DNA of 64,000 nucleotides from Cepaea nemoralis. Its lineage: Eukaryota; Mollusca; Gastropoda; Stylommatophora; Helicidae. The DNA is taken from positions 62,001 through 126,000 of the forward strand of contig JACEFZ010021374.1 of the NCBI GenBank assembly GCA_014155875.1. The letters are read 5' to 3'. Positions 5,721-61,454 of the stretch are shown here, one piece after another (positions within the stretch are counted from its first letter, which is position 1; each line of letters starts with the position of its first letter). The position numbers were made by a program, and so were the translations under genes. The notes under the pieces are model-generated. The model was not told the DNA's origin, did not search any database, and saw only the letters and a list, made by a program, of their open reading frames with translations.

Positions 5721-5729
5721 TCAGTGACA

Positions 5730-8700: not shown

Positions 8701-9280
8701 CATCTATATGTTCAGCTGTATCCGGACCCCAGTAACACACTAACATCTAAATGTTCAACTCTATCCGGACCCCAGTAACACATTAACATCTAAATGTTCA
8801 GCTGTATCCGGACCCCAGTAACACACTAACATCTAAATGTTCAACTCTACCCGGACCCCAGTAACACACTAACATCTATATGTTCAGCTGTATCCGGACC
8901 CCAGTAACACACTAACATCTATATGTTCAACTCTATCTGTACCCCAGTAACACACTAACATCTATATGTTCAGCTGTATCCGGACCCCAGTAACACACTA
9001 ACATCTATATGTTCAACTCTATCCGGACCCCAGTAACACACTAACATCTATATGTTCAACTCTATCCGGACCCCAGTAACACACTAACATCTATATGTTC
9101 AACTCTATCCGGACCCCAGTAACACACTAACATCTATATGTTCAGCTGTATCCGGACCCCAGTAACACACTAACATCTATATGTTCAACTCTACCCGGAC
9201 CCCAGTAACACACTAACATCTATATGTTCAACTCTATCCGGACCCCAGTAACACACTAACATCTATATGTTTAACTGTGT
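5730..9280. repeat. 43-bp satellite array, about 82 units
   Basis: The core of the unit reads CATCTATATGTTCAACTCTA then TCCGGACCCCAGTAACACACTAA. Period is 43 bp, with a few 44-bp units that have CCAGAGAACAC or CCAGAGTACAC in place of CCAGTAACAC. Variants at fixed sites (CTCTATCC, CTCTACCC, CTGTATCC; ACTAAC, ACTCAC; CTATATG, CTAAATG) are arranged in local blocks. The first units (5730-5830) and the last (9255-9280) are degenerate, which marks the array edges. No ORF or promoter is apparent within it. Confidence 0.97.
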
Positions 9281-9850
9281 CAATATCCGGGTTCCATCTT
9301 GTAACCAATACTTGACTTGTCAAATAGTGTCAATTGTTGGGAACCAAATGAGGTAATTAAACACGCCAGTTTTTTTTTAACTACCCTTTGACAGCGCCGT
9401 GAACAAACATTAAACAGGGAAATTATCATATTTCCCGGTTCTCAACTTGGCGTCTGGTGTGCTATGATGGAAAGTGTGCAAACAGAGGTATGTTATTGAC
9501 CTTGCAGTAAAAACACGTGACTAAGCGTTCCGGACATTAGCACCTTCACCAGGAGCACATAAAACAAAACAAACAAACAACACCAATAAAAATATATACA
9601 TATAGGGAACCTGGAAATTGACGTAAAATGTCCCAGGCGCAAGCTGGTAATCAGTGAAGAGTAAATATATAACATTCAATAATTGGTGCTTGCGAAAAAA
9701 AAAAAAAAGAAGGACAACAATGATATGACAGAAACACCAATGTGGAGCTCATGGAGATAACAAGGCAAATTTTAGTGAATCTGCAGGTAAAGAAAAGCGC
9801 TGACGAATCAATACAATAACAGGTAGGAAACACGAAACTGCAATGGATGT
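9281..9850. other. No recognisable feature between satellite and LINE
   Basis: AT-rich sequence with an A run at 9697-9709. No coding similarity was recognised. Confidence 0.4.
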
Positions 9851-17507: not shown

Positions 17508-18080
17508 TACGAGGGCGAGTCAATAATTAAGTCATACAGTTCTGTGGGATGGCAGGTAAATGTAGTTGGTGTTTTCTACAGGGGTCATTAGGTGATAGCC
17601 ACATCGAACGTTATATTCCCGTTCGTCAGGAGGCGATAGGTGTCTCATACGCATGAGCGGCGCATAAACAAAATGGCGACTGTATTTACGGAGTGTACAA
17701 CCAAAACGCAACGTGCTGTTGTGCGTTTTTTGTGGGCAAAAGGACTGCCTGCAGAGGACATTCATAAGGAAATGCTCCCTGTTTATGCTGACTACCAGCC
17801 CGAATAAAAGCGTGCTTCAATGCAATGGAAATATCCTTCTTCACATTTTGTCCAACAATTCAAGGTTACGCCATCAGCAGGGGAAATTATGCGGACATTG
17901 TTCTGGGATTGTCAAGGAGAGCTTTCAACAAATTTCAGGAAGAAACATGACAATGTGAATTCTGAATCGTACTGTGAAGTTCTATCGATGCTTCATGATG
18001 CAATTCGAAGAAAACATCCAAGACTGCTGACTAGAGGAGTGTTGCTTCTTCATGACAATGCCAGACCACATACGGCTCGA
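17508..18080 (+). pseudogene. Mariner transposase, left half, internally deleted
   Basis: The left end TACGAGGGCGAGTCAATAAT follows a TA and looks like a mariner terminal repeat. An ATG at 17673 opens an N-terminal helix-turn-helix-like segment (QRAVVRFLWAKGLPAEDIHK) that stops at about 17805. The text then jumps to the middle of the catalytic domain: FKVTPSAGEIMRTLFWDCQG near 17860-17915 and the mariner signature LLHDNARPHTA near 18050, whose Asp is the second catalytic residue. About 120 codons, including the first catalytic Asp, are missing. The gene is then split at 18081 by a piggyBac element and resumes at 20720. Confidence 0.85.
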
Positions 18081-18334
18081 CTGATTGCCTGCCAGATGCC
18101 ACTTGATAGACCCGGTAACCCAAATTTGACACCCAGGTGCCACTTTATAGTCACTCTTATGTATAGTGGTTTAATTTATCCGTTTTTCCTTTCCAGTCCA
18201 CAAGTTTTAGTGTCTCACTTAGTTAAACTCTAAAGCGAAAGATTTCGCTTCCGGCATTGTGATACAAAGCCTTGGAATCCATTTTCTGTGTTAGAAAGGA
18301 CTTTTTCAAAGTTTTGTTTTGAATTTTCTTACAA

Positions 18335-19606
18335 ATGGCAACGCCTCCTTCTAGTTTGCGGCCTCGTAGACTCACATCAGACCAAGCAAGATTATTATTT
18401 GAAAGGGTTTTAGACGATAGTGATTCCGATTTGAATGAAGATTCTGATAGTTGTAGTTCTTATAGTGAATCTAAAGTTTTAGCACGTGGTGATAGGGAAA
18501 CCTACGACAGTGGAAGTTTGTCATCAGCTGAGGGGTCTGACAATGAATATCAGCAAGTCAGAATTACTACTAAGCGCAAACAAATGCAAACAGTACAAAC
18601 AAAGAATAAATCTGGAGGTAAAAACTCTTTAATTTTACCAGACACTTTAGAGCCTGAAGCACCTCTACCATCTTCTTCAACAGCATCGACATGGCATGAT
18701 GTGTCAGAAGGGAAAACAAAACCTAAGTTTGAGATTCGTCCTCGGAGGATTCACGTCAATCCTGAACTTTATAAACTTCAAACACCAATGGATTTTCTCA
18801 ATGTGTTTTTTGACGATCACATAGTAGACTGTATAATTACAAATGTAAATGAGTATGCAGAAAAGATATTGAAACAGAACACTCCTAAGAGAAAACATTC
18901 TCGTCTGCAATCCTGGACCCCACTCACGAAGCACGAATGGTTGAAGTTTACGTCTGTCATTATTTCTATGGGACTTGATCGAAGACCATGGATCAAGGAC
19001 TACTGGAGTACTGCTTCACATTTCTATACTCCTTGGTATGCCACAATGTTTTCCAGAAATAGATTTGAATCTATTTATCACACCATGCTTCACGTATGTG
19101 AACCAGACGCAGCGGGTGCAACTAAAATTGAACCTCTTGTTGACATGATTCTGAAGAAATTCCAGGCAGCATATTACCCATTTGAAAATGTGTCCATTGA
19201 TGAAATGGTTATTGGGTGGCAGGGCAGATTTCAGCACAAACAATACAATGCAACAAAGCCTCACAAGTACCACATCAAAACATTTGGCCTTTGTGATTCT
19301 GCGACTGGCTATGTGATGAATTTAAAAATTTATTATGGAAGAAACACCGCGTACAATCCGGAGTTAGATCCCACATCTGCTCATGCAGTGAAAGTGTTTG
19401 CCACACTACTGAATGTTCTCGGACCTGGTCATCACATCTTTGCTGACAGATTCTACACTTCGAAAGCTCTGATTGACTATCTGCATTCCAACAATTTCAA
19501 TTATACAGGCACACTGAATGTCAACAGAGTAGGCTTTCCTCCAGAGTTGCTTCAGTTGCGACATGCTTCAGAATCTGCAACAAACTTATTTTTGGATATT
19601 TGTTAG
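18335..19606 (+). pseudogene. PiggyBac transposase, C-terminally truncated
   Basis: The 423-residue open frame starts MATPPSSLRP. Residues 1-130 are acidic and low complexity, as in piggyBac N-termini. From about residue 140 the DDE-type core begins (PMDFLNVFFDDHIVDCI near 151-166). The first catalytic Asp is in VSIDEMVIGWQGR (Asp289) and the second in HHIFADRFYTS (Asp371); their spacing fits the family. The frame stops about 50 residues later, before the third catalytic Asp and the cysteine-rich C-terminal domain, so it cannot be a complete transposase. Family members usually run to about 550-650 residues. Downstream sequence to the right terminal repeat is repetitive and non-coding. Confidence 0.88.
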
Positions 19607-25830: not shown

Positions 25831-27095
25831 CAGCTTTCCGAGCCATTGAGGGTCTTTGCTGCAAATACAATCTGTCTCCATTCGTCTCTCTGGTGGACCT
25901 TCTCTTGCCAGTCGTTGATTCCAAGTGCTTGTAGGTCTGTACATGTATTATCTCTCCACCGTCTTCTTGGTCTACCTCGGGGTCTACGGTCATTTATTTC
26001 CTGAGTGTAAGCGAGTTTTGTTTCCCTATTATCTTCCATTCTTTCTATATGCCCCAGCCATTGTAGTCTATTAGCCTTCATGATACCAGTGATTAGCGGG
26101 GACTTAAACAGATCATAAATGTCTTTGTTACTTCTTCTTTTCCACTCTCCACTTTGTGTATCCCTAATGGGTCCAAAGATGCGTCTTAAAATTTTGTTCT
26201 CAAAGGTTTGTAACAAGGCTTCGTCTCCTTTCGTTGTACTCCAGGTTTCAGAGCCATACAGCACAACTGGTCTGATCAGTGTTTTGTATTTTGTGATTTT
26301 GGTGTTACGAGATAGCGCCTTTGATTTTAGTAGATGTTGTAGTGCATAGTATATCTTATTTCCAGAGTTGATTCTAGTTTGTATTTCTTCCCTTATGATG
26401 TTGGAGCAGTTGAAGATTGTACCCAGGTATTTGTATGTTTCCGTTCTTTTAATGGTCATATTATCTATTTGTATGTGGCCAGAGTTTTTAGCCATTCCGT
26501 CTCTTGAAATTACCATATATTCTGTCTTATCTTGGTTGATAACCAGCCCCATCTGTTGGGCTTTTTCCTTTAAGTGAGTCAATATTTCCAATGTCTTTTG
26601 TTCACTTTGTCCTATAATATCTATATCATCTGCATAACCAAGCAGCTTGGATGTTTCTCCAATATCACATTCCTCCTTTATCTTCCTTACAACTTTCTCT
26701 AGAGCCAGATTGAAGAGTAGCGGCGATAGTGCATCACCCTGTTTCAAGCCAGATGTTATTTGGAAGGGGTCTAATTTCCTGCCTTTATATGTTACTATAT
26801 TATAAGTATCTTCCATGCATAGTCTGGTCATGTTGATTAACTTCCTTGGTATTCCAAATTCCTGCATAGCATTCCATAGACTATTCCTATGGACACTATC
26901 ATAAGCCTTTTTAAAATCGACAAAAATGTTATGGAGATCTCTTTTATATTCCCAATGTTTCTCGGCTATTTGTCGTAAGATAAATATCTGATCTAATGTT
27001 GATCTGTTTTGTCTAAAACCCGCCTGGTAGTCACCTAATATGTCTTCTGAATATGGTTTTAGTCTATTTGGTAATGTTATTATAATACGTGTACA
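25830..27095 (-). pseudogene. Non-LTR reverse transcriptase, readable ORF, 5' truncated
   Basis: One open frame runs on the minus strand from about 27095 to a stop at 25830, some 420 codons without a break; the first ATG in it is at 26867. It starts in the palm (ILGDYQAGFRQNRSTLDQIF near 27035), continues FVDFKKAYDSVHRNSLW near 26905 and the primer-grip region SGLKQGDALSPLLFNLALEK near 26740. The catalytic box is LLGYADDIDIIG near 26640-26610. The thumb reads YKYLGTIFNCSN and the C-terminal part VVLYGSETWSTTKG and RPRGRPRRRWRDNTC. Endonuclease and the N-terminal RT fingers are missing, so the insertion was 5' truncated and the ORF has no natural start. The unbroken frame implies a young copy. 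Clade uncertain. Confidence 0.85.
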
Positions 27096-27539
27096 TTATT
27101 ATACTTTTACACTATTATACTTATACATTTGTATACCTATTATATACAATCTCCATCCACTGATTGGGCTGTATGTTTTCAGACTAATGAGTAAATCACC
27201 GGCCACTGGTCGCCCTGGTCAATCTCCAGTCACTGAACGAGCTGCCAAGAGCGCTAGTCCGTGACTTCACATTGGTAGACATGGTGACACATAGTCCCGG
27301 TGTGTCCTTTCACATACCTACCTCTCAGTCTTGTTACCGTTACAAGAATCGTCATGCCCCTCCGCAGATAGCAAGTTCCAGCTCTGAAACAGTCCCTGAG
27401 GAGATGACACTTCAGTACCAGGTCCTGGTGAAAGTCTCTACACTAACCTCACTCCCAAGCTATTGTCGGGGCTCAGGTGAGCTGAAGTCAATGCATCAAA
27501 TTTAAGAGTTCAAGCTCTCAGTCATCCAGAGATTCATAA
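27096..27539. other. No recognisable feature
   Basis: Begins with repeated TTATTATACTT-type sequence that also flanks the other side of the LINE at 25745-25800. No gene recognised in the remainder. Confidence 0.4.
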
Positions 27540-27934
27540 CCAACCACCTTCCTATCAACCAGCCACTCATCATGCAACCACCCACCCAGCCATCAACCAA
27601 CCACCCAGCCATCAAACCAACCACCTAGCCGTCAACCAACCACCCAGCCATCAAACCAACCACCCAGCCATCAACCAACTACCCACGCATCATCGAACCA
27701 CCCATCCACCAGCCAACATTTCATCAAACCAACCATACATCATCCAACCAATAAACCACCCCCACATCAATCAACCAATTCCCCAACTACCCACCCATCA
27801 ACCAACCGCCCACACACCAGCTAACTACCTTCCCAACCATTAACTAACCACCAAACCACCCATCAAGTACCCACCCATCATAATGGGGCAACCCTTTTCT
27901 GTGAAATTGGAACCACGACTAACTAACTAGCTAG

Positions 27935-27982
<48 letters not shown>

Positions 27983-29810
27983 ACTAACTAACTGATTAAC
28001 TAACTAACTAACTAACATTCAACCAACCCCCCAACCATCAACTAACATGTAAAACATCAACCGATCACCCAATCAGCAACAAACCACCCAACCATCAACC
28101 AACCACCCAACCATCAACCGATCACCCAACCATCAACCAACCACCCAATCATCAACCAACCACCCAATCATCAACCAACCACCCAATCACCAACCAACCA
28201 CAAAACCATCAACTGACCACAAAACCATCAACCAACCACCCAGCCATCAAAAAACCACCCAACTATCAACCAACCACCCAATCATCAAACAACCACACAA
28301 CCATCAACCAACCACCCACCAACCACCCAATCATCAACCAACCACCCAACCATCAACCAACCACCCAACCAACCACCCAACCATCAACCAACAATCAACC
28401 AACCACCCAACCATCAACCAACCACCCAACCATCAACCATCAACTAACCACCCAATCATCAACCAACCACCCAATCATCAAACAACCACCCAACCATCAA
28501 CCAACCACCCAACCATCAAACAACCACCCAATCATCAACCAACCACCCAACCATCAACCAACCAACCACCCAACCATCAACCAACCACCCAACCATCAAC
28601 CAAACACCCAACCACCAACCAACCACCCAACCATCACCCAACCATCAACCCACCACCCAACCATCAACCAACCACCCAATCATCAACCAACCACCCAACC
28701 ATCAAACAACCACCCAATCATCAACCAACCACCCAATCATCAACCAACCACCCAATCATCAAACAACCACCCAACCATCAACCAACCATCAAACAACCAC
28801 CCAATCATCAAACAACCACCCAATCATCAACCAACCACCCAACCATCAACCAACCAACCACCCAACCATCAACCAAACACCCAACCACCAACCAACCATC
28901 ACCCAACCATCAACCCACCACCCAACCATCAACCAACCACCCAACCATCAACCAACCACCCAACCATCAAACAACCACCCAATCATCAACCAACCACCCA
29001 ATCATCAACCAACCACCCAACCACCAAACAACCACCCAACCATCAACCAACCACCCAATCATTAACTAACCACCCAACCATCAACCAACCACCCAATCAC
29101 CAACCAACCACCTAATCATCAACCAACCACCAACCAACCACTGAACCATCAACCAACCACCCAACCATCAACCAACCACCCAACCATCAACCAACCACCC
29201 AACCATTAACCAACCAACCAACCAATCATCAACCAGCCACCCAATCATCAACCAACCACCCAATTATCAACCAACTACCCAATCATCAACCAACCAACCA
29301 ACCATCAACCAACCACCCAACCTTCAACCAACCACCCAACCTTCAAACAACCACCCAGTCATCAAACATCCACCCAACCATCAACCAACCACCCACAATC
29401 AACCACCCAACCATCAACCAACCACCCAACCATCAACCAACCACCCAAACATCAACCAACCACAAAACCATAAACCAACCACCCAATCATCAACCAACCA
29501 CTCAACCAACCACCCATCAACTAACCGCTCAACAATCAACCCAGTCACCAACCAGCCACCCAACCATCAACTACCCACCCAACCATCAACTAACCACTCA
29601 ACCTTCAACTAACCACACAACCATAAACTAACCACTCAACCATCAACTAACCACACAACCATCAACTAACCACACAACCATCAATTAACCGCTTAACCAT
29701 CAACTAACCACTCAACCGTCAACTACCCACCCAACCACCAACTAACCACCCATCAGCTACCCACCCATCCTCAAACCCACTATCCAGTCAGCCACTAATC
29801 AACACTGACC
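27540..29810. repeat. Long minisatellite of about 19-bp units
   Basis: About 2.3 kb built from CAACCAACCACCCAACCAT and close variants (AATCAT, AACCAC), with units of 11-23 bp mixed in. An early block at 27915-28015 is pure (CTAA)n. Strand composition is strikingly skewed: A and C on the plus strand, almost no G. Confidence 0.96.
27890..28015 (-). repeat. Rep-7 copy, inverse orientation
   Basis: GTGAAATTGGAACCACGACT precedes (CTAA)n; the complement matches the (TTAG)n plus flank seen at 21132-21330 and 50472-50605. Confidence 0.6.
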
Positions 29811-30869: not shown

Positions 30870-31516
30870 ACCTCGTCCTCTGGTACGGTGTACACAAACG
30901 CTGAAAACTGTATTTTACTGGAGTCGTCTTTACAACACGAATTAAATAATGTAATTAGATGGAGCTATTCAAACCGTATGCAAATTAACATCAATAAAAC
31001 AAAAGCAATGTTATTAACAACCAGACAAAGACTTCAAACTCTAAGCTCACACACATCACTTCAACTTCACATCGATAACATGCCAGTAGAAAGTGTAATT
31101 GAGCACAAAACATTAGGCCTAATCATTGATAGAAACCTAACCTTTAATTCCCACGTTCAAGCGCTCATTAAAAAAACAGCGAAAAAAGTCTACCAACTCG
31201 CCAAAATTAAAAACTTCCTTGATGAGGACACAAGGAAACTATTCTATACTTCTCATATACAGACACACTTTGACTACTGCTCTACAATCTGTGACGGTTG
31301 TTCTAATTCAAACACCAAGCGACTTTACTCACTCCAGAAACGGGCCATGAGTCTAATTTATAGCAAACATTTATCTGACAATCCTAGCCTGTATAAACGC
31401 CTTCAGTTACTACCATTCCGCAAACGCCTGATTTTCAATAAAGCTAAACTAATTCACAAAATCCTGCATCGGAATGCCCCAAATTACCTTTGGCCATTGT
31501 TTAAATATAATGCTAG
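30870..31516 (+). pseudogene. LINE reverse transcriptase, 5' part, split by LTR element
   Basis: A plus-strand frame begins abruptly near 30870 and carries the end of an RT palm and thumb: MQININKTKAMLLTTRQRL near 30975, IEHKTLGLIIDRNLTF near 31100 and FDYCSTICDGC near 31270. RLYSLQKRAMSLIY and RLQLLPFRKRLIFNKAKLIH follow. The catalytic YADD box is not present, so the copy is 5' truncated. At 31516 the LTR retrotransposon begins in mid-frame. The frame resumes in register at 38412 once one copy of the 5-bp duplication is discounted. Confidence 0.85.
31512..31516. repeat. Target site duplication, left (GCTAG)
   Basis: GCTAG immediately before the 5' LTR, matched by GCTAG at 38412-38416 after the 3' LTR. 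Five bases is typical for Gypsy-type integration. Confidence 0.92.
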
Positions 31517-33101
31517 TGTCATGAAATGCTGCATGTTAGTGAATCCCAGATCGACGACTGTATGCAGCGAATACCCAGGGAGTAGAAGGGTTAATGAAAC
31601 AGAAGGATAAAACACAACGGATTGACCAGCGCATATGTATATAGGTCAAGGCGGGAGAGTCGACTACAATACAGGTGACCGGGAGAGTGGAAAAATTAGT
31701 TTGCTACAAAGACAGACAGTATCATGGATCAGTCTATTGCGTTCTGGAGGTAGGGATATACGGAAAAGCCCAGATCTGGAATTTTCCACTGACCAGGGAT
31801 AATGAAGTCTGAATTTGCTTTGTCCAGCAATGTCAAGGACGATGGGACAAAGATGATCTAAAGAGAGTGGCCACGTCTTTGTGTCAGTTTAGTGTGTGTT
31901 CCCCAACTGGACGGAAAGATAGAATTATGTGTCCTGTAATGAAAAGAAATATCCTCCTTTATAATGGGATAAAGTGCTTGGCTGAGGATTAATTTCGATT
32001 CGTGGATCTACATTAATTCTCTATAGGAACATCGATGTGTATAAGGTATATTAAAATATCGTTTTAGAATAGGAATATAGATGAGCGTGTATTACCTTTA
32101 TCATTACATATTATTAGTGGGTGTTTTAGACTGAGGTGAATTCTTATGTCTTATGCGGATGGTGACTTCGAAAGCCTTGTCATTATGGCTGGAGAAGGAC
32201 ACTTGCATAAGTTAGGAGTAAGGGGCGGACGCTTACCACTCGACTTGTTATATTCATCCACAGGTTCCCAGTTTCTAGGGACATTAGAGAAGAAAGAAAA
32301 ACCTACTCTACGTGAACCAATAAAGTACATACTTAGATCCAGAAAGAACCTAAATAGTTCGTTCAGATGAACAAATACTAACATCAAGAAAAATACAGAA
32401 GACTGTATGCTAACACGCATATACCACGGGGCTCCTAAACAGAAAAAGATGTTAAGGTGGGGGAAGCAGAGACTTCAACCTACATACGACGTGCATACAT
32501 AGGGTAGAAGGAATAGACAAAGACAATAGTGATAATCATAATAGACAATAGGAAGAACATTGACAATGTGGTGTTTTCTGTTTTTGATGATGGATACTTA
32601 ATATCATGAAACCGATTTGGGCACAGTCATAAACTTACGGGACTTTTATAGCAATACGGTGAATCAGTGATGAACAGTTTGTTTTCATTTCACTAACGGA
32701 TTTACCATCAGATTCAAGCCTACGGATCATCCCGGGTGAGCTCTGTCCTGTTTGATGTGATGTCCTGTAATCGTGAAGAATGACTGGCGAGAAGATACAG
32801 CTGATAGACATTCTGAGTTCATTCTGTCCACAACCATAGAATACAATAGCAACTACACAGACAATATCCATACACACACCGGACATAGTTTTCTTTATTA
32901 ATAAATCTTTTATTATATGTTGAAAGGAAATGTTGTCGGAGTATGTGTTGATAGAATAATAGAGAGAGTGACAGAAGTAGATATATGGAAGGGAAGACAG
33001 AAGGGAGGGGTGTAGACAAAAGTCAGTCAATAATCCCAACAGATAATAAGTTTGAAGATGTGCTTGTTGATTCCAACTCTCTCCCGGGAAAACAAGTGAC
33101 A
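31517..33101 (+). repeat. 5' LTR
   Basis: Starts TGTCATGAAATGCTGC, ends AAAACAAGTGACA. A candidate polyadenylation signal AATAAA lies at 32900-32905 and a TATATAGG motif near 31638. An identical 74-codon open frame with ATG at 32146 is found in both LTRs (second copy at 37457); I see no domain in it. Confidence 0.93.
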
Positions 33102-33106
33102 TAAAA

Positions 33107-33123
33107 TGGTGGGAGCAGCGGGA
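33107..33123 (+). promoter_or_regulatory. Primer binding site
   Basis: TGGTGGGAGCAGCGGGA starts five bases after the LTR. TGG matches the complement of a tRNA CCA end. The sequence partly resembles a leucine tRNA 3' end, from memory, but the tRNA is not proven. Confidence 0.65.
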
Positions 33124-33622
33124 TACGTACATACATAATACTCATATGACCTAAAAGCATAAAGAGGCATATGCATAGAGAGAGGTACTTGCATATTGGC
33201 ACAGGCATAGCGGAGTACCTACATGTTGGGACATACTGATTGGAAGGAATATAAGTATATATTGATGACTTTTAATGGAAGGACGTCCATTGGATATATG
33301 GTGCCATTACAGATATGGTAGAAACATTTCATTAATGCTGGTGACTTTGCAGTGAGAAAGTTCCAGACAGAGTGAATGTGGATAGGTGGTAAGACATTAC
33401 ATACCTAGTCACACGGTCACACGTCTACATAAGTCTTTATCCTATATCTCCTCTTGTGGATGAGAGAGTGGTTGTGATGTACTGTGTGGTGGGGTAGATT
33501 TATAATATTAGATAGACATAGATAAATGGTATAGGTTCTAGGTGGAATATAATTGTATAGTGAGTACTTCTTTTCTGCCTTGAGGGATCTTTACTCAACT
33601 TGCTGACTTATCTGCTGTAACT

Positions 33623-34672
33623 ATGGCAACTCCTAAAGTAACTACAGCAGAACTGAGAGCCAACGGGGAGGAAATTGGGTTGGCTGGTTCAGACTTAACT
33701 GATTACATCCAAGAAAGAGAGCGAGAGATTCGTCAGGCGGAACGAGAAGATCGAAAGACTGAGTTGGAAGTGAGAAGAATAGAGGTGGAGACCAAGCGAC
33801 TAGAAATAGAACAAGAGGCCAAGAAACTAGAACAGGAGACCAAGAGACTGGAAATGGAACAAGAGGCCAAGAAAATGGACCAGGAGACCAAGCGACTAGA
33901 AATGGAACAAGAGGCCAAGAAAATGGACCAGGAGACCAAGAAACTGGAAATGGAACATGAATACCGCTTGAAAGAGTTAGAACTCAAGACACAAACTAAG
34001 GGTGAAATAGATGCAGCAGAAGGAAGTTCATCTTCACCTGGAGCAACCTACATGAGTGGACAGGGTTACCAGGCCATGAAGTTTCCCTTAGCGGTCTACG
34101 ATGAAAGTAAAGAAAAGATATTCCAGTTTTTGGATCGGTTCGAGGCTATGGCAATCGCTATGGGACTAGATAGAACCAGATGGGCTCTTAAAGTATCCCA
34201 GTCTTTACGTGGTTCGGGCTACGAGGTCTACACACGCCTACCACCAGGACAGGAAAATCAGTACGAGGAATTGAAAGCAGCTTTGATGAAACATTATGAA
34301 GTCACCGCACAAACATATCGGAAAAAGTTTAGATCGTCTAGACGAGAGCCGGGAGAACTATTCGCCGCCTACAGTCTGAGGCTAAAATCCTATCTACAGA
34401 AATGGATGGACTTGGCAGAATTCCAGAGGGATTATGAGAGTCTCGAAGAGATGATGGTGGTAGACCAAATGCGAAAGCAAATGTCGAAACCTCTCAGAAC
34501 CTTCTTAGGAGAACAAGGGGCGGAACGGATTGATGTGGTGAATAAGCTGGCGGAACGATTTGTGGAAGTACATGGTGAAACGGAGGAACTAAGTACACAA
34601 TCCAAAGTCAGGAGAAAACAGAGAAAAAGAAACCTAAAAACTGGGAAGGAGAAAAAGGGGAACCTTATATAA
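33623..34672 (+). CDS. Gag-like protein of the LTR element
   Basis: A 349-residue open frame starting MATPKVTTAE. Residues about 28-125 are a highly charged coiled coil made of near-repeats around EQEAKKMDQETKRLEM. From about 150 a globular capsid-type region follows (KIFQFLDRFEAMAIAMGLDR, ALKVSQSLRGSGYEVY, YEVTAQTYRKKFRSSRREPG), similar to retrotransposon Gag or SCAN-like capsid domains known in other animals. It is basic at the end. The frame is intact and 522 bp downstream of the 5' LTR. It presumably forms the particle that packages element RNA. A second frame, -1 relative to this one, is open from 34579, so the two overlap by 94 nt. Confidence 0.82.
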   Translation: MATPKVTTAELRANGEEIGLAGSDLTDYIQEREREIRQAEREDRKTELEVRRIEVETKRLEIEQEAKKLEQETKRLEMEQEAKKMDQETKRLEMEQEAKKMDQETKKLEMEHEYRLKELELKTQTKGEIDAAEGSSSSPGATYMSGQGYQAMKFPLAVYDESKEKIFQFLDRFEAMAIAMGLDRTRWALKVSQSLRGSGYEVYTRLPPGQENQYEELKAALMKHYEVTAQTYRKKFRSSRREPGELFAAYSLRLKSYLQKWMDLAEFQRDYESLEEMMVVDQMRKQMSKPLRTFLGEQGAERIDVVNKLAERFVEVHGETEELSTQSKVRRKQRKRNLKTGKEKKGNLI

Positions 34673-36033
34673 AGCACACAGAGGAGAGTTCAGAGAAGGT
34701 GAAGGTAGGAAACCAGAGCACCTCGAATTCTCAAGCGAAACGACAATGGTCGGAGAAATGGTGTTCATTTTGTAGGGCGGCATCCCACAACACAAAAGAC
34801 TGCAGATCGAAACCTAAGAGTTCTTACTTCGCAGCATGCAAGGTGATTCCTACATCGGTGATCACAGACAAGGCTGAGGTCGGCGAAGGAGAAAGGAACA
34901 AAAAGGACACACGGAAACCTAGGAAGGGAACAGAGTGCACTCACTGCCAGTCGACAACACATAATACTGTGGACTGCAGATGCAAGGCCAAACACGCCAA
35001 TTGCATAACCAACCTCGAGGAATCAAAAGAGGAAGGCAAGGAAACGGTCAAGGAGATGAAAGACACTCAGGACCAAGAGAGACCACCTGTGGTTGAACTT
35101 ATTGAAGTCAATGGCCAGCAGGTTGCTTGTCTCTACGATACCGGTTTGGATGGGGAAGCGGTGGTGGACGCCAGCTTGGTAAGCCCAGACCAACTTACAG
35201 GGGAGACCATAGAAATACAGCCGGCAATGAGGAGTGCTGTTACCATGACGCTGCCAATCGCCAAGGTGGAGATTAAATCCAGGTACGTCACGGGCATTAT
35301 TCCAGCTGCTGTATTATCTGACTCCTTATTTCCTATGATCATTGGCACGAAATATGTCTTTTTGGGGATGCCCAAACAGCAAGCCCACAAGGGAACAGTA
35401 GTCAGTGTATCTCAAGGGGAGGAAAAAGAGGCAGAGACACTATGCGACAACTCGGAGATAGGAGAATTGCATACTGCCCAGAGGAAGGATACTACGTTGC
35501 ATCCTTGCTACAGGAAGCTGCAAAGAAGTGCTGAGCCACCAGAACGGGGACAGTACTTTCTGAAGAATCAACTACTCTATCGGAGAGCTGGGAGGGGAGA
35601 TAACCTGCATGAGCAGTGGGTGGTTCCAGAGACCCACCGTCCTCACATTCTTCAGAGTGGACACATCATAGGCGAGAATCGACATATGGGTGTCAGAGAG
35701 ACCTTGCAGCAAATATCCGGCCATTATTGCTGGCCAGGAATGACCGGAGATGTACGCCGGTGGGTGAAGTCTTGTTCGGAGTGCCAGAGAGCACCACCCA
35801 ACAAGCGAATTAAGAGGAAACTAGCTCTTAAAGTGGAAGACAAAGTGGAAGTGTGGAGTCCAGCAGAGACCAATATACTCCAAGTAGGATGGAAAGGACC
35901 TTATCCTGTGGAAAAGGTGGTGTCCAAGAACATCTACAAAATACGGATCGGGGAAGAGAAGAAAATCTCCCTAGACATCTCATTAGGAAATATGAGGAGA
36001 GATCCGGGAGCAAAGCTTCACACTTTATGGTGA
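34579..36033 (+). CDS. Protease-integrase remnant ORF of the LTR element
   Basis: The frame is open from 34579 (after TGA 34576-34578) to a stop at 36033. It has no compelling own start and overlaps gag in the -1 frame, suggesting expression by frameshift. In order: two zinc knuckles of form C-x2-C-x4-H-x4-C (CSFCRAASHNTKDC near 34760-34803; CTHCQSTTHNTVDC near 34936-34977); an aspartic-protease motif CLYDTGLDGE near 35130 with a FPMIIGTKYV segment near 35330; then directly an integrase zinc finger (ETHRPHILQSGHI to KSCSECQ, about 35630-35790); then the integrase C-terminal GPY segment (VGWKGPYPVEKV near 35885-35925). Reverse transcriptase and RNase H should lie between protease and integrase, and the integrase core between the last two parts. 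Both deletions keep the frame open. Confidence 0.85.
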   Translation, partial: NGGTKYTIQSQEKTEKKKPKNWEGEKGEPYIKHTEESSEKVKVGNQSTSNSQAKRQWSEKWCSFCRAASHNTKDCRSKPKSSYFAACKVIPTSVITDKAEVGEGERNKKDTRKPRKGTECTHCQSTTHNTVDCRCKAKHANCITNLEESKEEGKETVKEMKDTQDQERPPVVELIEVNGQQVACLYDTGLDGEAVVDASLVSPDQLTGETIEIQPAMRSAVTMTLPIAKVEIKSRYVTGIIPAAVLSDSLFPMIIGTKYVFLGMPKQQAHKGTVVSVSQGEEKEAETLCDNSEIGELHTAQRKDTTLHPCYRKLQRSAEPPERGQYFLKNQLLYRRAGRGDNLHEQWVVPETHRPHILQSGHIIGENRHMGVRETLQQISGHYCWPGMTGDVRRWVKSCSECQRAPPNKRIKRKLALKVEDKVEVWSPAETNILQVGWKGPYPVEKVVSKNIYKIRIGEEKKISLDISLGNMRRDPGAKLHTLW

Positions 36034-36628
36034 TGGCAGCCATTAGGACAACGGTTACCAGTCCAGACGAAGACCAGAGATCGCCAGTACAACATAGGAG
36101 GGCCTATGGGACAGTACGGGATAGGTCAGATTTACCCAACGACAGTAGGAGGGAAATCACAAGTCAGGGAAAGGACAAGAGTGAAAGTTTCACCGGTAAC
36201 CAAGTTCAGAAGGGGTGGGTAACGTCGGGAAAAGCGAGAATTACCCAGGACTCCAACCAAAGATTGGCTGACCAGATACAACATCGCCCAAGATGGTCCT
36301 GGAAGCAAAAGCCCAGGAGGTTTGGGAAAGACGACTCGGTCCGACGAGGACGAGGCGGAACATCCCCAGAGGAAAAGCCGGGGAAAACCAAGAGGACATG
36401 GAAGCAGTGTTACAATCAAGATGGGACAATCCGTTTGTATTGTGAGCCGTCGCTGACGCAAGTCGAAAGTAGGTCGACTGAACGTACAGGAGCGAGGAGC
36501 CAACACTAGTTTCAGTCGTTAGTAGTATAGTAGGGTGTCAATTAGAGCGCCTACTGGATAATAAGATGAGCCATGTGAGGACCCAATCATATCATCAACA
36601 CGTGGTGTTAATAGCTACTTCGCAGAAG
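36034..36628 (+). other. Internal LTR-element sequence of unknown function
   Basis: Between the integrase end and the RNase H tail. One frame stays open through 36509 with basic Gly/Pro/Arg-rich text, but I recognise no domain. It could be a Gag-like tail or decayed sequence. Confidence 0.4.
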
Positions 36629-36754
36629 CTCAACGCACGATGGATGTGATGGACGTTGTTGCTGCAACGGGACTTCACAGTGGAATACTTTGGAAAGGAG
36701 AATGTAGGAGCAGATTTCTTATCCAGACATCCAGATCCGGAGGAAGAAGACTAG
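36629..36754 (+). pseudogene. RNase H C-terminal tail, misplaced
   Basis: The text FTVEYFGKENVGADFLSRHP, ending in a run of acidic residues and a stop, is the end of a Gypsy RNase H domain. One stop occurs upstream near 36641. Its position downstream of the integrase C-terminus reverses the normal order, where RNase H precedes integrase. Confidence 0.8.
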
Positions 36755-36813
36755 GGTTGTGGATCATGGGAATCAAACCTACAGCGAGAAAGATTCGACG
36801 CGGTCTAATCTCT

Positions 36814-36823
36814 TAAGAGGGGG
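36814..36823 (+). promoter_or_regulatory. Polypurine tract
   Basis: AAGAGGGGG lies a few bases before the 3' LTR, the normal place for plus-strand priming. Confidence 0.75.
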
Positions 36824-36827
36824 CCTA

Positions 36828-38411
36828 TGTCATGAAATGCTGCATGTTAGTGAATCCCAGATCGACGACTGTATGCAGCGAATACCCAGGGAGTAGAAGG
36901 GTTAATGAAACAGAAGGATAAAACACAACTGATTGACCAGCGCATATGTATATAGGTCAAGGCGGGAGAGTCGACTACAATACAGGTGACCGGGAGAGTG
37001 GAAAAATTAGTTTGCTACAAAGACAGACAGTATCATGGATCAGTCTATTGCGTTCTGGAGGTAGGGATATACGGAAAAGCCCAGATCTGGAATTTTCCAC
37101 TGACCAGGGATAATGAAGTCTGAATTTGCTTTGTCCAGCAATGTCAAGGACGATGGGACAAAGATGATCTAAAGAGAGTGGCCACGTCTTTGTGTCAGTT
37201 TAGTGTGTGTTCCCCAACTGGACGGAAAGATAGAATTATGTGTCCTGTAATGAAAAGAAATATCCTCCTTTATAATGGGATAAAGTGCTTGGCTGAGGAT
37301 TAATTTCGATTCGTGGATCTACATTAATTCTCTATAGGAACATCGATGTGTATAAGGTATATTAAAATATCGTTTTAGAATAGGAATATAGATGAGCGTG
37401 TATTACCTTTATCATTACATATTATTAGTGGGTGTTTTAGACTGAGGTGAATTCTTATGTCTTATGCGGATGGTGACTTCGAAAGCCTTGTCATTATGGC
37501 TGGAGAAGGACACTTGCATAAGTTAGGAGTAAGGGGCGGACGCTTACCACTCGACTTGTTATATTCATCCACAGGTTCCCAGTTTCTAGGGACATTAGAG
37601 AAGAAAGAAAAACCTACTCTACGTGAACCAATAAAGTACATACTTAGATCCAGAAAGAACCTAAATAGTTCGTTCAGATGAACAAATACTAACATCAAGA
37701 AAAATACAGAAGACTGTATGCTAACACGCATATACCACGGGGCTCCTAAACAGAAAAAGATGTTAAGGTGGGGAAGCAGAGACTTCAACCTACATACGAC
37801 GTGCATACATAGGGTAGAAGGAATAGACAAAGACAATAGTGATAATCATAATAGACAATAGGAAGAACATTGACAATGTGGTGTTTTCTGTTTTTGATGA
37901 TGGATACTTAATATCATGAAACCGATTTGGGCACAGTCATAAACTTACGGGACTTTTATAGCAATACGGTGAATCAGTGATGAACAGTTTGTTTTCATTT
38001 CACTAACGGATTTACCATCAGATTCAAGCCTACGGATCATCCCGGGTGAGCTCTGTCCTGTTTGATGTGATGTCCTGTAATCGTGAAGAATGACTGGCGA
38101 GAAGATACAGCTGATAGACATTCTGAGTTCATTCTGTCCACAACCATAGAATACAATAGCAACTACACAGACAATATCCATACACACACCGGACATAGTT
38201 TTCTTTATTAATAAATCTTTTATTATATGTTGAAAGGAAATGTTGTCGGAGTATGTGTTGATAGAATAATAGAGAGAGTGACAGAAGTAGATATATGGAA
38301 GGGAAGACAGAAGGGAGGGGTGTAGACAAAAGTCAGTCAATAATCCCAACAGATAATAAGTTTGAAGATGTGCTTGTTGATTCCAATTCTCTCCCGGGAA
38401 AACAAGTGACA
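36828..38411 (+). repeat. 3' LTR
   Basis: Same ends and sequence as the 5' LTR apart from about three differences; 1584 bp. Followed directly by GCTAG. Confidence 0.93.
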
Positions 38412-38944
38412 GCTAGACACAGTAAACGTTTAAATATACTAAACATTCCGAAGCCTAGGATTGACTTATACAAAACAAGCTTAACGTACTCTGCAGCTCA
38501 GCTGTGGAACAATCTTCCACAAGAAATCAAAGACATCACCAATCCCTATTCATATAATCGCAAATTATTCGAACACTATCTCAATACGGATTACCTTCCC
38601 CCTTAATAATAGAGATAATAATAATAATAATAACAAAACCCTAGTATAACAGCCAATCCTCTTTTTGTAGGCCAGTATATTCCACATGGCTAATAACAAG
38701 TGTCAGACCATTATCTAATATTACTGTATCGTGTAGTTTTGATGTTCGCATTTTGCCCATGCCTTTATAATGCATATCTTTTATATTGTTGCTGTTCTTT
38801 GTTAGCCTTGAATGATGTGTGAATGAAATAATGTATGAAAGAGAGTGACTAGAAGGGCAGAATGTTAGACGGGCCTGCGTGCCCAATTCTTAACCCTTTG
38901 AAAATAAAGTTTGTTCGTTCGTTCGTTCGTTCGTTCGTTCGTCC
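38412..38944 (+). pseudogene. LINE reverse transcriptase, 3' part and 3' UTR
   Basis: After the GCTAG duplication the LINE frame resumes (RHSKRLNILNIPKPRIDLYK, SAAQLWNNLPQEIKD) and ends in a stop at about 38606. An ATA-rich stretch and a 3' UTR follow, with AAAATAAAGTT and a (GTTC)n tail at 38917-38943. Together with 30870-31516 it forms one 5'-truncated LINE, readable before the LTR insertion. The 3' end matches 13640-13745 on the other strand. Confidence 0.85.
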
Positions 38945-40241: not shown

Positions 40242-41345
40242 CTACGATCCATGGCGGTGGCGAGTGTGGCTGGTAAGGCCAATTCTTGCTGCAAATGTTT
40301 GCCCACAGTAGGTGCATGTGAAAACATGGTCACTTCCACCATTTTGCATCATCTTACGTCTCTCACGCTCTGTGTGTGCTTTATCTGCAATCATTTTCTC
40401 CTTTGTCTTTATTCCGTTTCTGATAGTTGCCCTCCATGCAACACGTTCAGCGGCGACGTGCTCCCAATGTGCATTATCAATGCCTGTATCAATCATGTCC
40501 CGCTTACACACATCTTTGTATCGTAGTAGAGGCCGACCCTGAGATCTCCTACCCGTCTGTAATTCACCAAAAAAGATGTCCTTTGGTATTCTATCATCAT
40601 CCATCCTCCTAACGTGTCCTATCCATCTAAGTCTACGAAGACTGAGCATGGAATACACCGTCACACAACCTGATCTTTCCAATACTTCAGTATTTGTGAT
40701 TTTGTCTTGCCACTTAATACCAAGTATTCTTCGCAGACACCGCATATGAAAGCTGTTTAAACGTTTCTCTTGGTGTGAGTAAGTTGTCCAGGTTTCACTG
40801 CCATAAAGAAGAGTACTAAGGACACAGGCTTGATAGACAAGGACTTTTGTTTTGGCAGTAAGCTTCCTGTTCTCCCAGACTCTTTTTGCTAACATGTTCA
40901 TTGTTGTTGCTGCCTTGCCAATCCTGATGTTGATTTCCTGATTGAGGGATAATTTGCTATTATTTACCTCCGATCCTAGATATGTAAAATGGTCTACTAT
41001 CTCCAGTTCGGCGTCATCAATAAAGATTGATGGTACACCATGTGCACCTTGTGACATAATCTGAGTCTTTTTTTTGTTAATTGTTAAACCAAATTCAGAA
41101 CAAGCATTGGAGAATGCAGATAGTAGATGTTGTAATTCTTCCTCAGAGTGGGTCGTAATTGCAGCATCATCCGCAAAAAGCAACTCTCTGATTAGTACCC
41201 TGCTAATTTTGGTCTTGGCCTTCAATCTCTTGAGCATTATAGAGGCCACCATCTGAGCGTGAGTGAATGTATATACCATCATCCTGATCACGAAAGGCAT
41301 ATTTCAGTAGAAGTGAAAAGTATATCCCAAAGAGGGTGGGAGCAA
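40242..41345 (-). pseudogene. LINE reverse transcriptase with C-terminal C2H2 finger
   Basis: On the minus strand the palm begins near 41340 (LAPTLFGIYFSLLLKYAF), then a frameshift near 41220 leads into the catalytic box RELLFADDAAITTHSEEE near 41180. The thumb is FTYLGSEVNNSKLSLNQEIN near 41000 and the C-terminal part LLYGSETWTTYSHQEKRL near 40800 and LRRLRWIGHVRRMDDDRIPK near 40640. The protein ends in a C2H2 zinc finger (CTYCGQTFAARIGLTSHTRH, near 40270-40250) just before the stop. Such terminal fingers are known in some LINE families and probably help bind nucleic acid. The copy is 5' truncated, with one frameshift; the rest is open for 352 codons. Confidence 0.85.
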
Positions 41346-52072: not shown

Positions 52073-52466
52073 AGTTATAAACTTCATAAACAAGAACACA
52101 TTACCTAGATAATTATATACACTATAAGTAACCAAAAATTACCTAGACAGATGCATATACTCTATAAACAAGCAAACATTACCTAGACAGATGTGTATAC
52201 TCTATAAATATGCAAACATTAACTAGACAGATGTGTATATACTCTATAAACAAGCAAATATAACTTAGACAGATGTATATACTCTATAAACAAGCAAATA
52301 TAACCAAGACAGATGTATACACTCTATAAACAAGCTAACATTACCCAGACAGATGTTTACACTCTATAAACAAGCAAACATTACCCAGACAGATGTGCAT
52401 ATCTCTATAAACAAGCAAATATAACCTTGACAGATGTATATACTCTATAAACAAGCAAACATTACC
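52073..52466. repeat. ~40-bp intronic minisatellite, right part
   Basis: The array continues from 51600 and runs up to the splice-donor position of the exon at 53778-52466. The last unit's CATTACCT is the donor itself on the minus strand. Confidence 0.9.
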
Positions 52467-53778
52467 TGGGGCGAGGCTGGCTGTGTTGAGACTGAGGGAA
52501 CCTGATGATGCCCAGCTCTAGAGGTGACTCAACGATGGTGGGAGAGGTAGGGGTGTGTATGTCTGCTGCCTTGGCAAAACGCCGATTTGGGAATTTAGGA
52601 GGGGGGAAATACAAGAGGTATTCTGGGGGAAGTTTCTGGGATTCGTGGCTGGCATTATTTGAGGAAAATGTTGATGCGAAAAATGGGGCACAGTGTAAAG
52701 CCGGCGGAGAAGGCGATAATGGAAGAGGCGGGGGTGAGAAGGAACGTAGGGGTTCACTGGAAGCAGATGATGGTAGTGGAGGAGGATTGTGTGAGGTAGG
52801 TGACGTGGGCAGGCTCTTCAACTTGGCAAAGAACTTTCTAGCGCCAGATTTCTTGACTTGGTAGCTAGGGGGCATGGATCCACAAAGAAGCAGGTGGGGA
52901 GATGTAGGAGGTGAATCTGGAACATTCCTAGGCTGAGACACCTCTATTGGTAATGTGGGTGCTACGTCATTTGATGGTTTCACTTGAGAGTCCCCACTCG
53001 GTCTTGAAAAAGCACCCACTTCAACAGCTACTACAGAAGCATGATCAAGTTTACCAGGGGCTTTGGACATTTTCTCGACAATTTCTGAGTCTCGTCTCTT
53101 GCGCTCTTGTTTCGTAGTTTTATGTTTTGCATAAATAGCTGGATTCTCAGCAATTTTCCTCTTTGTGTCTGTTAGTTTCAATACATGCTGAACCAAGGCA
53201 CCACAGAATTCCTGTGCTGAACATCTTTCTTCTGTTTTCAGCTCGTATTCATGAACAACCTTCTCCATTTCCTTCAGAGCATATGTGTGCCTCTCCTTAG
53301 GAGTGAACACAGGCTTAATAATTAGATTACTATTTGATGTGAGGTACTCCTTTGTGTTAAAATTGGAATCATTTGCTTTCATGGGGAGAGCTATTTTGGT
53401 TACAACAGGATCAAAGTTGTCGGAGATGCCGTCAGTTGTCAAGAATACCATGTCTCCTTTGTGACAAAAGGTTACGGAGCAAGTCAAATTGTGTAGCTCT
53501 GGATTTATACCATCCACTGGTCCTAGAGCTCCTCCTGCATCCCGGATGTCACGCTCGCTGCCCACATCATGAGAGCCAATGGTCACTTCCCTAATGGCAT
53601 TATTGGCGGAGTAGATGAATGCTAAGCTGTCGCCAACGTTTACACAGCAGACGGCATGTTGATCAGAATTTGCAACCTCACAGATCATACACAGGCACAG
53701 AGTGGTCAGGCCGGCTTCCTTGGACATGATGGCTCTGTGAGCTTCGTCCAATGCCTTTCTTAAAAGCAGCACGACGTC
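52462..53778 (-). CDS. PP2C-like gene, exon 4
   Basis: The acceptor is CACACCATACAG before GACGTCGTGC at 53778. The exon encodes residues 152-589 of the model, from [14 protein letters not shown] through GDS, TTDG and LDH motifs to a proline-rich tail. The frame closes with TAA at 52464-52462, which lies inside CAG|GTAATG, a good donor at 52466/52465. The exon is therefore either terminal or spliced on in phase 2. Confidence 0.85.
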   Translation of the reverse strand, partial: DVVLLLRKALDEAHRAIMSKEAGLTTLCLCMICEVANSDQHAVCCVNVGDSLAFIYSANNAIREVTIGSHDVGSERDIRDAGGALGPVDGINPELHNLTCSVTFCHKGDMVFLTTDGISDNFDPVVTKIALPMKANDSNFNTKEYLTSNSNLIIKPVFTPKERHTYALKEMEKVVHEYELKTEERCSAQEFCGALVQHVLKLTDTKRKIAENPAIYAKHKTTKQERKRRDSEIVEKMSKAPGKLDHASVVAVEVGAFSRPSGDSQVKPSNDVAPTLPIEVSQPRNVPDSPPTSPHLLLCGSMPPSYQVKKSGARKFFAKLKSLPTSPTSHNPPPLPSSASSEPLRSFSPPPLPLSPSPPALHCAPFFASTFSSNNASHESQKLPPEYLLYFPPPKFPNRRFAKAADIHTPTSPTIVESPLELGIIRFPQSQHSQPRPR

Positions 53779-56700
53779 CTGTATGGTGTGATATAAAAGA
53801 GAAATCATTACAAGTTCATAAGAGTGGATAAAATACACAATAAATACACAATATTGCTTAGACCAACACCGTGGGAATGAGTGTATCATGCTTACTTAGA
53901 CAAACACACTGGGAATGAGTATATCATGTTTACTTAGACAGACACCATAGGAATGAATGCATCATGCTTACTTAGACAAACACCATGGGAATGAGTGTAT
54001 CATGCTTACTTAGACAAACACACTGGGAATGAGTATATCATGCTTACTTAGACAAACACACAAAAACAAGTCATGCAGCAGGGTCCTTCTGTGGGTATGT
54101 GAAGTGCTAGGACCATCACATGTTTGTGGGTCTCGGTGTACGGAGAAATAGAAGACCAGTCTTTCCCTCCCATAGAGAATGTCAAGAACTGGCATCGAAG
54201 CCTTGTCTCGCCACTCTCATACCATTGTAAGATTAACATCTGGCTTACTTACTCAATGCTAATTAAAGTGTGTATCCTAAAGAAAGCAAAGAAACAGATA
54301 AAGATATATAAGACAGGCAGCAATTATAAGGGAAAGTGAAAGAATACAGAGAAAACAGAAAGCATGGAGGTGACATGAATTAAGAAAATGACTGACCATG
54401 GAAAGAAGGAAAGATTTAAAAAAAAAAAAAACAGAAAGAAAGAAAAGCAGAAATAAAGTTACAGTGAAATTAGTAAATGAAGAAAGAAAGGCAAAATGAG
54501 TGAACAAATTATATCTTCAAAGAAAAAGAGGTACTTTTCACATCTGAACGGAACTCAACTTTTGTGCCGCCTTTCTAACAATGAAGGAGTTGTATTTTAA
54601 TATTATTAAATTGTATAATTTCATGTTTTTCTTTAGATCTGTTTGTGCTGTTCCATTCCTGATGAAAATTTGTATAATCAAACAGTCATTTGTTACCAAA
54701 GTATACTTATTTTCATTTTATTATCATATATATGTTTTGGATTTTTTCTTATTCTTTTTAGATTTCCCCCGGTGATTTATGTTCAGCATTGTGGTTTTCA
54801 TTGTAAGGCATGTACACTGTCTCCGTGTTTAGTATGTCTCACCTTTATTTTAAAAGTGTCACAAATCAGGGCACACAGGTGAAATGTTAGGACCATCACA
54901 ATTTTGTAAGCAGAGGAATAGGTGGCCACGAATCTCATCTCATCAGGTTCCTCTTGTACCATGCGGTGTTGAAGTGAAGTATAAACAGTGGGAGAGTGCC
55001 CATTTATGGGCTTCATGTATCGATATTCCCATGGACTCTGCTATTCCATCTGTCCATCGTTTACATGGTCGGCCTCTTCCTCTGCTTCCATCTGGTCTGT
55101 ACATCATTGCTTGTTGTGGTATACTGTTAGTTGGTAACCTTGCATGGCCAAACCATTTGACTTGCTGCCTTCTAATAAAATCTAGCGCTGCTATAACCCC
55201 CACTTTAGTCCTGATTTCTTCATTTCTGATCTCATCTCTTCTTGATACATTGAGTATTCTTCTCAGGAATCTCATTTCTGTTGTTGTAATGTTTCTTTTC
55301 TCTTTTTCTGTCATTGTCCAGGTTTGGCATAGGTAGCATAAGAATTGGTAGGAAGATTGTGTTGTAAACTGCTTTCTTAGTAACTATTGATACATGTTTA
55401 TTCTTTAGTATTGGTGTCATTTGTCCAATGAGTTGGTTTGCCTTACTGCATCTATTTTCGATCTCGTCTTCTGATTTGTCATTTTATAATATTAAACTTC
55501 CTAGGTACTCAAAACTCTTTACTTGTTTCAGGGGATGTTCGTTTAGGTGAATTGTATGAACAGAAAAAATGTGGAAGATAACAGCCAGAAGTAAGCAGTA
55601 AGATAGACTGTATACTTGACTGAAGGAAGCAAACAAGAAGACACAAAGTCAGTCTGTCAGTTGGAAAGGCATAAAAGAAAGAATAAACTGTGGCACAGCC
55701 ATGTCTTAACATAATGCTCTCTGGGTACCTGTGTGTTTTCTGGTTTGTGTCCCCGGTCAAATATTGTATAGTTGAGGTACTTCATGCTGCCATACAGTGC
55801 ACACCTGGCCGCCAGCCGTGACTTCTCGCCCCAGTTTACACCATCCGCCACCATCAAGATGGCATTGTTGCGACGAACACATAAGGCAAAGCTATCAGCA
55901 ACTGGTTCACCTTAAATTACATACAATCATACAACTGGTTCACATGAAATTACATACAATCATACATACATGTCAGCATCTGCGGTTATGAGGTGAAATC
56001 AGTTTCACAACCCTGACAAACCAGATTCAATTTTAGCTGCAGATGATTTGGGAGCGGGTCGCTCTGCATCCATCATGTGCCATGCCGATAAGCGTGGGCG
56101 GTCGTGTTTTTGCCATCTCACTCGATCACCAGAGCTATGGATCAGCTCTGTGTTCCTGTCTCAACCATGCCACATGGCAAAGACATCCAGGTACTTACTT
56201 CTCGGTCTTCCCCTTGATCTCTTCTCTCCGATTTTGCCAGTTGACACCAAGTTCTCCAAGTCATTTCTTCTCATAACATGTCCAAAACATTTTGACTGTC
56301 TACGTCTAATTTCTCTAATCAATTTACGATTTTAATTTATATCCTGCAGTAATTGGTCATTGGCTTTTCTGTCTGTCCATGGTATTCTTTGCATTTTCCT
56401 CAGAAACCACATTTCCACAGCCATCAGATATTTTCAGCTTGACTGCTCATTGTCCACGTTTCCCATCCATACAAAAGTACAGGTTCTATGTAGCACTTCA
56501 ACACTATTTTTGTCGTTGGAGAGTATGAGAAATGATATCATGGCCTCAGCTAAATGAAGTCCTGGTGAGTATGAGAAGAGCTAGGAGAACTACTGGACTA
56601 TTTGTGGTGATGCTGTATTGTTAGGAGAATTATTGGACTATTAATGTTGATGCTGTATTGTTAGGAGAATTATTGGACTATTAATGTTGATGCTGTATTG

Positions 56701-60720: not shown

Positions 60721-60802
60721 ATTAAACTGTCATCTGAGTTCTCATGATAAACAGGCCCATTTCTTGGAGATGTTCTTTAGTTCCAGTTTGGAGTTTAGCG
60801 TT

Positions 60803-61454
60803 GACTGAGTGGGCCATTATATCTTTCCCAATGAATGAATGGGCCAGTATATCTTTCCCAATGAATGAGTGGGCCATTATATCTTTCCCAATGAATGAGT
60901 GCACCAGTATATCTTTCCAAATGAGTGAGTGGACCAGTATATCTTTCCCAATGAATGAGTGGGCCAGTATATCTTTCCAAATGAATGAGTGAGCAAGTAT
61001 ATATTTCCCAATGAATAAGTGGGCCAGAATATCTTTCCCAATGAATGAATGGGCCAGTATATCTTTCCCAATGAATGAGAGGGCCAGTATATCTTTCCCA
61101 ATGACAGAGTGGGTCAGTATATCTTTCCCAATGAATGAGTGGGCTAGTATATCTTTCCAAATGGCTGAGTGGGCCAGTATATCTTTCCCAATGAATGAGT
61201 GGGCCAGTATATCTTTCCCAATGAATGAGTGGGCCAGTATATCTTTATGACTGAATGGACCAGTATATCTTTTCCAATGAATGAGTGGGCCAAAATATCT
61301 TTCCCAATGAATGAGTGGGCCAGTATATCTTTCCCAATGAATGAGTGGGCCAGTATATCTTTCCCAATGGCTGAGTGGGCCAGTATATCTTTCCCAATGA
61401 ATGAGTGGGCCAGTATATCTTTCCCAATGAATGAGTGGCCAGTATATCTTTCCT
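60803..61454. repeat. 30-bp minisatellite
   Basis: About 21 units with GAATGAGTGGGCCAGTATAT and CTTTCCCAAT. The 30-bp period keeps frames open on both strands; I do not regard these as proteins. It lies about 520 bp upstream of the first visible exon. Confidence 0.95.

Follow-up and report, generated by a model that had tools for sequence, protein, structure and literature searches.

Gmr1 is a clade of Gypsy retrotransposons that was reportedly described by Goodwin and Poulter in 2002. According to the available parts of four papers, elements of this clade carry the integrase upstream of the RT, or have an order that is described as Copia-like (PMC8220671, PMC3587641, PMC6238403, PMC2774666). 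As far as the available text of two papers goes, Table 1 of PMC6238403 contains no Gmr1 row for molluscs, and the clade was not found in the annelids of PMC8556966. A second kind of precedent comes from plants, where a TR-GAG element is reported to transpose, and where the accessible part of the paper suggests help from an autonomous relative (PMC8704663).

Here we analyse an element found in a 64,000-base stretch of Cepaea nemoralis DNA (hereafter, the window). Positions 31517-38411 are a complete LTR insertion, and a real one (Table 1). We read it, with a probability of roughly 0.9, as a non-autonomous, internally deleted and recently inserted Gypsy-type element whose parent had the order gag - PR - integrase - RT - RNase H, i.e.: a Gmr1-type order.

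Results

A complete LTR element, inserted as one unit

The element has all the hallmarks of an LTR retrotransposon: direct LTRs with TG...CA ends (TGTCATG...GTGACA), a target-site duplication, a putative primer site and a polypurine tract. In a self-comparison of the window the two LTRs differ by two substitutions and a one-base indel. The near-identical LTRs, their ends, the perfect GCTAG duplication, the primer-site-like stretch (for which we guess tRNA-Leu as the primer) and the purine tract had all been reported in the original prediction, and each of them is found in the sequence. Fusing the flanks with a single GCTAG gives one uninterrupted ORF as the reconstructed empty site, an ORF that we take to resemble the end of a LINE protein; a Pfam scan of the left-flank and right-flank ORFs returned no match to either. 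The similarity of the LTRs, the duplication on both sides and the single ORF of the empty site support a clean and recent insertion of the element as one unit, as had been proposed. A search of the remainder of the 64,000-base window revealed no further copies of the element at E 1e-3, and neither Rfam matches nor tRNA genes were found in the window.

Table 1. Coordinates of the element and of its parts in the window, with the matching residues of the relative P0003.
Feature	Position	Strand	Remarks
Target-site duplication GCTAG, left	31512..31516	.	
5' LTR	31517..33101	+	1585 bases, TG...CA; 99.8% identical to 3' LTR
Primer-binding-site-like stretch TGGTGGGAGCAGCGGGAT	33107..33124	+	Starts TGG, 5 bases past 5' LTR; read from sequence
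Gag ORF	33623..34672	+	Coiled-coil-like N part and capsid part; frame differs from NC-PR
ORF with NC zinc knuckles, protease, H2C2 finger and GPY-type end	34579..36033	+	
PR to integrase zinc finger, unbroken	35092..35799	+	P0003 residues 1-236, 63% identity, E 4e-95
Deletion point, integrase catalytic core gone	35799..35800	+	P0003 residues 237-465 (229 residues) missing
Integrase C-terminal GPY-type domain	35800..35948	+	P0003 466 to about 513; 0/300 shuffles
Intervening stretch, integrase end to RT	35949..36194	+	Other frame than GPY; P0003 to residue 596; two sub-blocks, each 0/300 shuffles
Stretch at the gap of RT and RNase H start	36195..36403	+	P0003 about 597-927 missing
Degenerate RNase H remains	36404..36751	+	P0003 928-1043, 51% identity, E 9e-20; four in-frame stops
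Polypurine tract AAGAGGGGG	36815..36823	+	Directly ahead of 3' LTR
3' LTR	36828..38411	+	1584 bases
Target-site duplication GCTAG, right	38412..38416	.	

Other features lie elsewhere in the window. A transposase ORF at 18323-19603 (+) matches Pfam DDE_Tnp_1_7 (1.6e-51) and is presumably piggyBac-like, while a partial transposase at 17808-18230 (+; Transposase_1, 3.5e-10) is, we assume, of mariner type. Two ORFs with RVT_1 matches, at 25833-27095 (-) and 40245-41303 (-), with values of 6.1e-36 and 2.4e-10 respectively, are probably LINEs. Long tandem-repeat arrays are found, among the matches listed in the self-comparison, at 5722-9281, 1669-2789, 27534-29803 and 60802-61453, and the array near 28-29.6 kb contains open frames with repeated NHPT/NQPP-like peptides. 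Last, an open frame of 477 residues at 52465-53895 (-) has a weak PP2C-like match below the cut-off (0.0072) and is possibly part of a host gene.

Order of the pol domains in the element and in its relatives

A protein search with the PR-integrase ORF was passed by two of 3972 candidates (P0001 and P0002). When only part of this ORF was scored and longer proteins were allowed, three of 1756 passed (P0003, P0004 and P0005), the nearest being 63% identical to the window. The Pfam matches of P0003 run in the order H2C2 (178-236), rve (253-349), SH3/p58_C (485-529, matches that fall below the curated cut-offs), RVT_1 (660-819) and RNase H (884-1015), and the protein matches RVT_1, RT_RNaseH and RT_RNaseH_2. 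Both P0003 and P0005 are ordered PR - integrase - RT - RNase H. P0005 is a 1476-residue gag-pol that aligns with the window in three blocks, namely Gag, PR-finger and the RNase H end, all in the same succession; P0004 is ordered SCAN - H2C2 - rve, lacks an RT between these domains and stops behind the integrase. An IMG/VR scan with P0003 gave no match.

P0003 can be followed along the element. By tblastn its residues 1-236, 466-536, 498-596 and 928-1043 fall in order along 35092-36751, the second and third blocks overlapping because of a frame change, and a frameshift-aware alignment recovers the same order. In a dinucleotide shuffle control (300 shuffles per block, with blocks picked after the alignment had been inspected), the real score was reached by 0/300 shuffles in seven of the nine blocks, and the two others lie in the RT gap.

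The original prediction had listed Gag, PR, the integrase finger, the GPY end and the RNase H end, and these are present in the order it gave. Its reading of that order was a scrambled pol, in which the segments of a usual gag-PR-RT-RNase H-integrase element had been rearranged so that RNase H came last. The RNase H end does sit past the integrase end, and if the parent had been of the usual order a reordering would be needed. However, in P0003 and P0005 the integrase natively precedes RT-RNase H, both proteins align with the window in that order, and PR and finger form a gap-free block in P0003. The parts look out of order because the relatives place the integrase ahead of the RT to begin with, and we consider scrambling very improbable. 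Relative to P0003, two colinear deletions suffice to derive the window copy, with no inversion or reordering.

A Gypsy-type finger, a GPY end and an RNase H mark an element as Gypsy rather than Copia. In the window, the H2C2 finger (Pfam PF17921, 3.3e-16, 35623-35793) is the sole match above the curated cut-off among the five element pieces scanned, with no such Pfam match for Gag, PR, GPY or RNase H; GPY and RNase H were recognised by alignment to P0003. As for the clade, the remains in the window keep the integrase upstream of RT-RNase H, and the full domains are so ordered in P0003 and P0005. The RT is gone from the window copy, so its putative membership in the Gmr1 clade rests on the domain order of its relatives and not on an RT tree.

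Two deletions and the remains around them

In the translation, the NC knuckles (34762 and 34936) and the protease DTG (35137) can be read by eye in one frame with the finger. Upstream of the first deletion, P0003 aligns across the 236 residues of PR and finger with 0 gaps, at a score equalled by 0/300 shuffles. A fusion of PR to the finger had been proposed at 35430; since the relative runs through both domains without a gap, there is no join at that point. The proposed join between finger and GPY end is real, yet the frameshift-aware alignment to P0003 places it at 35799/35800 and not at 35815. The integrase core of P0003 has no match anywhere in the window. Further on, near 35.95 kb, the window shifts frame where P0002 stays open, a change that the original prediction did not contain.

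The second deletion took away the RT together with the first part of RNase H, some 330 residues by comparison with P0003, and the RT of P0003 has no match better than E 8 anywhere in the window. The frameshift-aware alignment had placed two P0003 pieces (623-651 and 835-849) at 36265-36405 as a candidate RT remnant. Shuffles do as well: the real score was reached by 161/300 shuffles for the sub-block 36265-36360 and by 42/300 for the sub-block 36340-36405, and the candidate was hence dropped. The 209 bases of the gap (36195-36403) are thus left without an assignment, and it is possible that they contain a small insertion.

RNase H had been predicted to begin at 36629. The match to P0003 starts at 36404, about 225 bases earlier, and carries four in-frame stops that had gone unmentioned. 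Two blocks of it, 36395-36560 and 36550-36635, each outscore 300/300 shuffles, the first of them narrowly (18.5 vs a shuffle maximum of 18.1 bits). A frame at 35958-36506 (+), open in P0002 at 98% identity, overlaps part of these remains in a different frame.

Gag is open in a frame of its own

The protein search with Gag was passed by 7 of 6491 candidates, and Gag was recognised through its relatives P0006, P0001 and, more remotely, P0004, where a SCAN domain is matched above the cut-off. The identity of P0006 is 98% where residues align, or 93% if gaps are counted over the 349 columns; P0001 is 86% identical over 348 and the distant P0004 33% over 326. P0011, from Littorina saxatilis, matches 24% of Gag, a stretch that we took as coiled-coil sequence. 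The repeats within Gag differ between the window and both P0001 and P0006, and also between these two.

The element had been said to keep Gag. This is true of the capsid part, which is open; the zinc knuckles share a different frame with PR. The frame change between Gag and NC-PR, near 34.6 kb, is absent from the original prediction. The Gag of P0006 ends as that of the window does, in the window's frame, while P0001 is open across NC and PR and then itself shifts frame at the end of PR.

The same deletions are found in a second sequence

P0002 comes from a public contig, and its cluster counts three member sequences. It runs across both 35799/35800 and the RT gap: two stretches of it, 199 and 183 residues long, are 98% identical to the window. 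Two more Gags of the element's family are P0001 and P0006. Each of these three proteins is listed with a contig of 13,100 bases, possibly the same one, and the deletions are seen in P0002 alone. P0001 and P0006 are different Gags; should the contig be one and the same, two copies may be present on it, possibly in tandem and sharing an LTR.

The recurrence of the joins bears on two other ways of explaining the structure of the element. In the first, the deletions and frame changes would come from a collapse of repeats during assembly: the element is repetitive, and the window is known from assembled sequence. Against this, P0002 has the same joins together with differences of its own, and P0006 has a Gag that ends in the window's frame, leaving an assembly artefact with very little credit. 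Because both deletions recur in P0002, a sequence 98% identical, they are not an error of this assembly, and they are probably not private to this insertion.

In the second, a formerly autonomous copy would have lost its integrase core and RT in place, after insertion. Old elements are often internally deleted, but here the LTRs had time for only three differences and the identical deletions are present in P0002, so that a loss in place is highly unlikely. P0002 and the window differ at ~2% of residues, vs 3/1585 positions between the LTRs; since the former exceeds the latter, P0002 probably split from the window copy before the present insertion took place.

Discussion

We favour an element that was already deleted when it was inserted. 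The window has no match to an integrase core or an RT, and P0002 has identical deletions and shares both joins: this supports the non-autonomous lineage put forward originally. Together with the near-identical LTRs, the same observations lend support, by inference, to mobilisation in trans. In such a scenario the RNA of the lineage would be packaged by its own Gag or by that of a partner, the RT of an autonomous relative would copy this RNA, recognising the primer site, the LTR and the purine tract, and the integrase of that relative would insert the copy. The deletions themselves would most likely have arisen through template jumps of the RT and have been copied on afterwards.

A more elaborate possibility is that of a stable, multiplying Gmr1-type sub-lineage, in which Gag, the protease and the core-less integrase have been kept open since they still act, for example in packaging or in dominant interference with the partner. 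We regard this as rather unlikely.

The surprise of a scrambled order falls away, while the trans-mobilised lineage stands. More generally, an element whose domain order is unusual by nature can be taken for a scrambled one. With the element described here, the Gmr1-type elements gain a non-autonomous derivative of recent insertion. Among the titles and abstract openings covered by our search of the literature on Gmr1 and non-autonomous elements there was no such derivative, a weak negative given that subscription journals and synonyms lie mostly outside that search.

With the Gmr1 clade, the element shares its Gypsy-type domains and the position of the integrase before RT-RNase H seen in P0003 and P0005, an order that the window keeps; it differs in that the integrase core and the RT are deleted. 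In the available part of PMC8704663, the TR-GAG and BARE1/BARE2-like elements of plants also are without most pol functions and keep the coding capacity for Gag. The elements of that paper are, from the same part of it, plant ATCOPIA elements, whereas the domains of the window element are of Gypsy type. In contrast to the TR-GAG and BARE-like elements, it also retains PR and the two end domains of the integrase, and its Gag lies in a frame separate from that of NC-PR.
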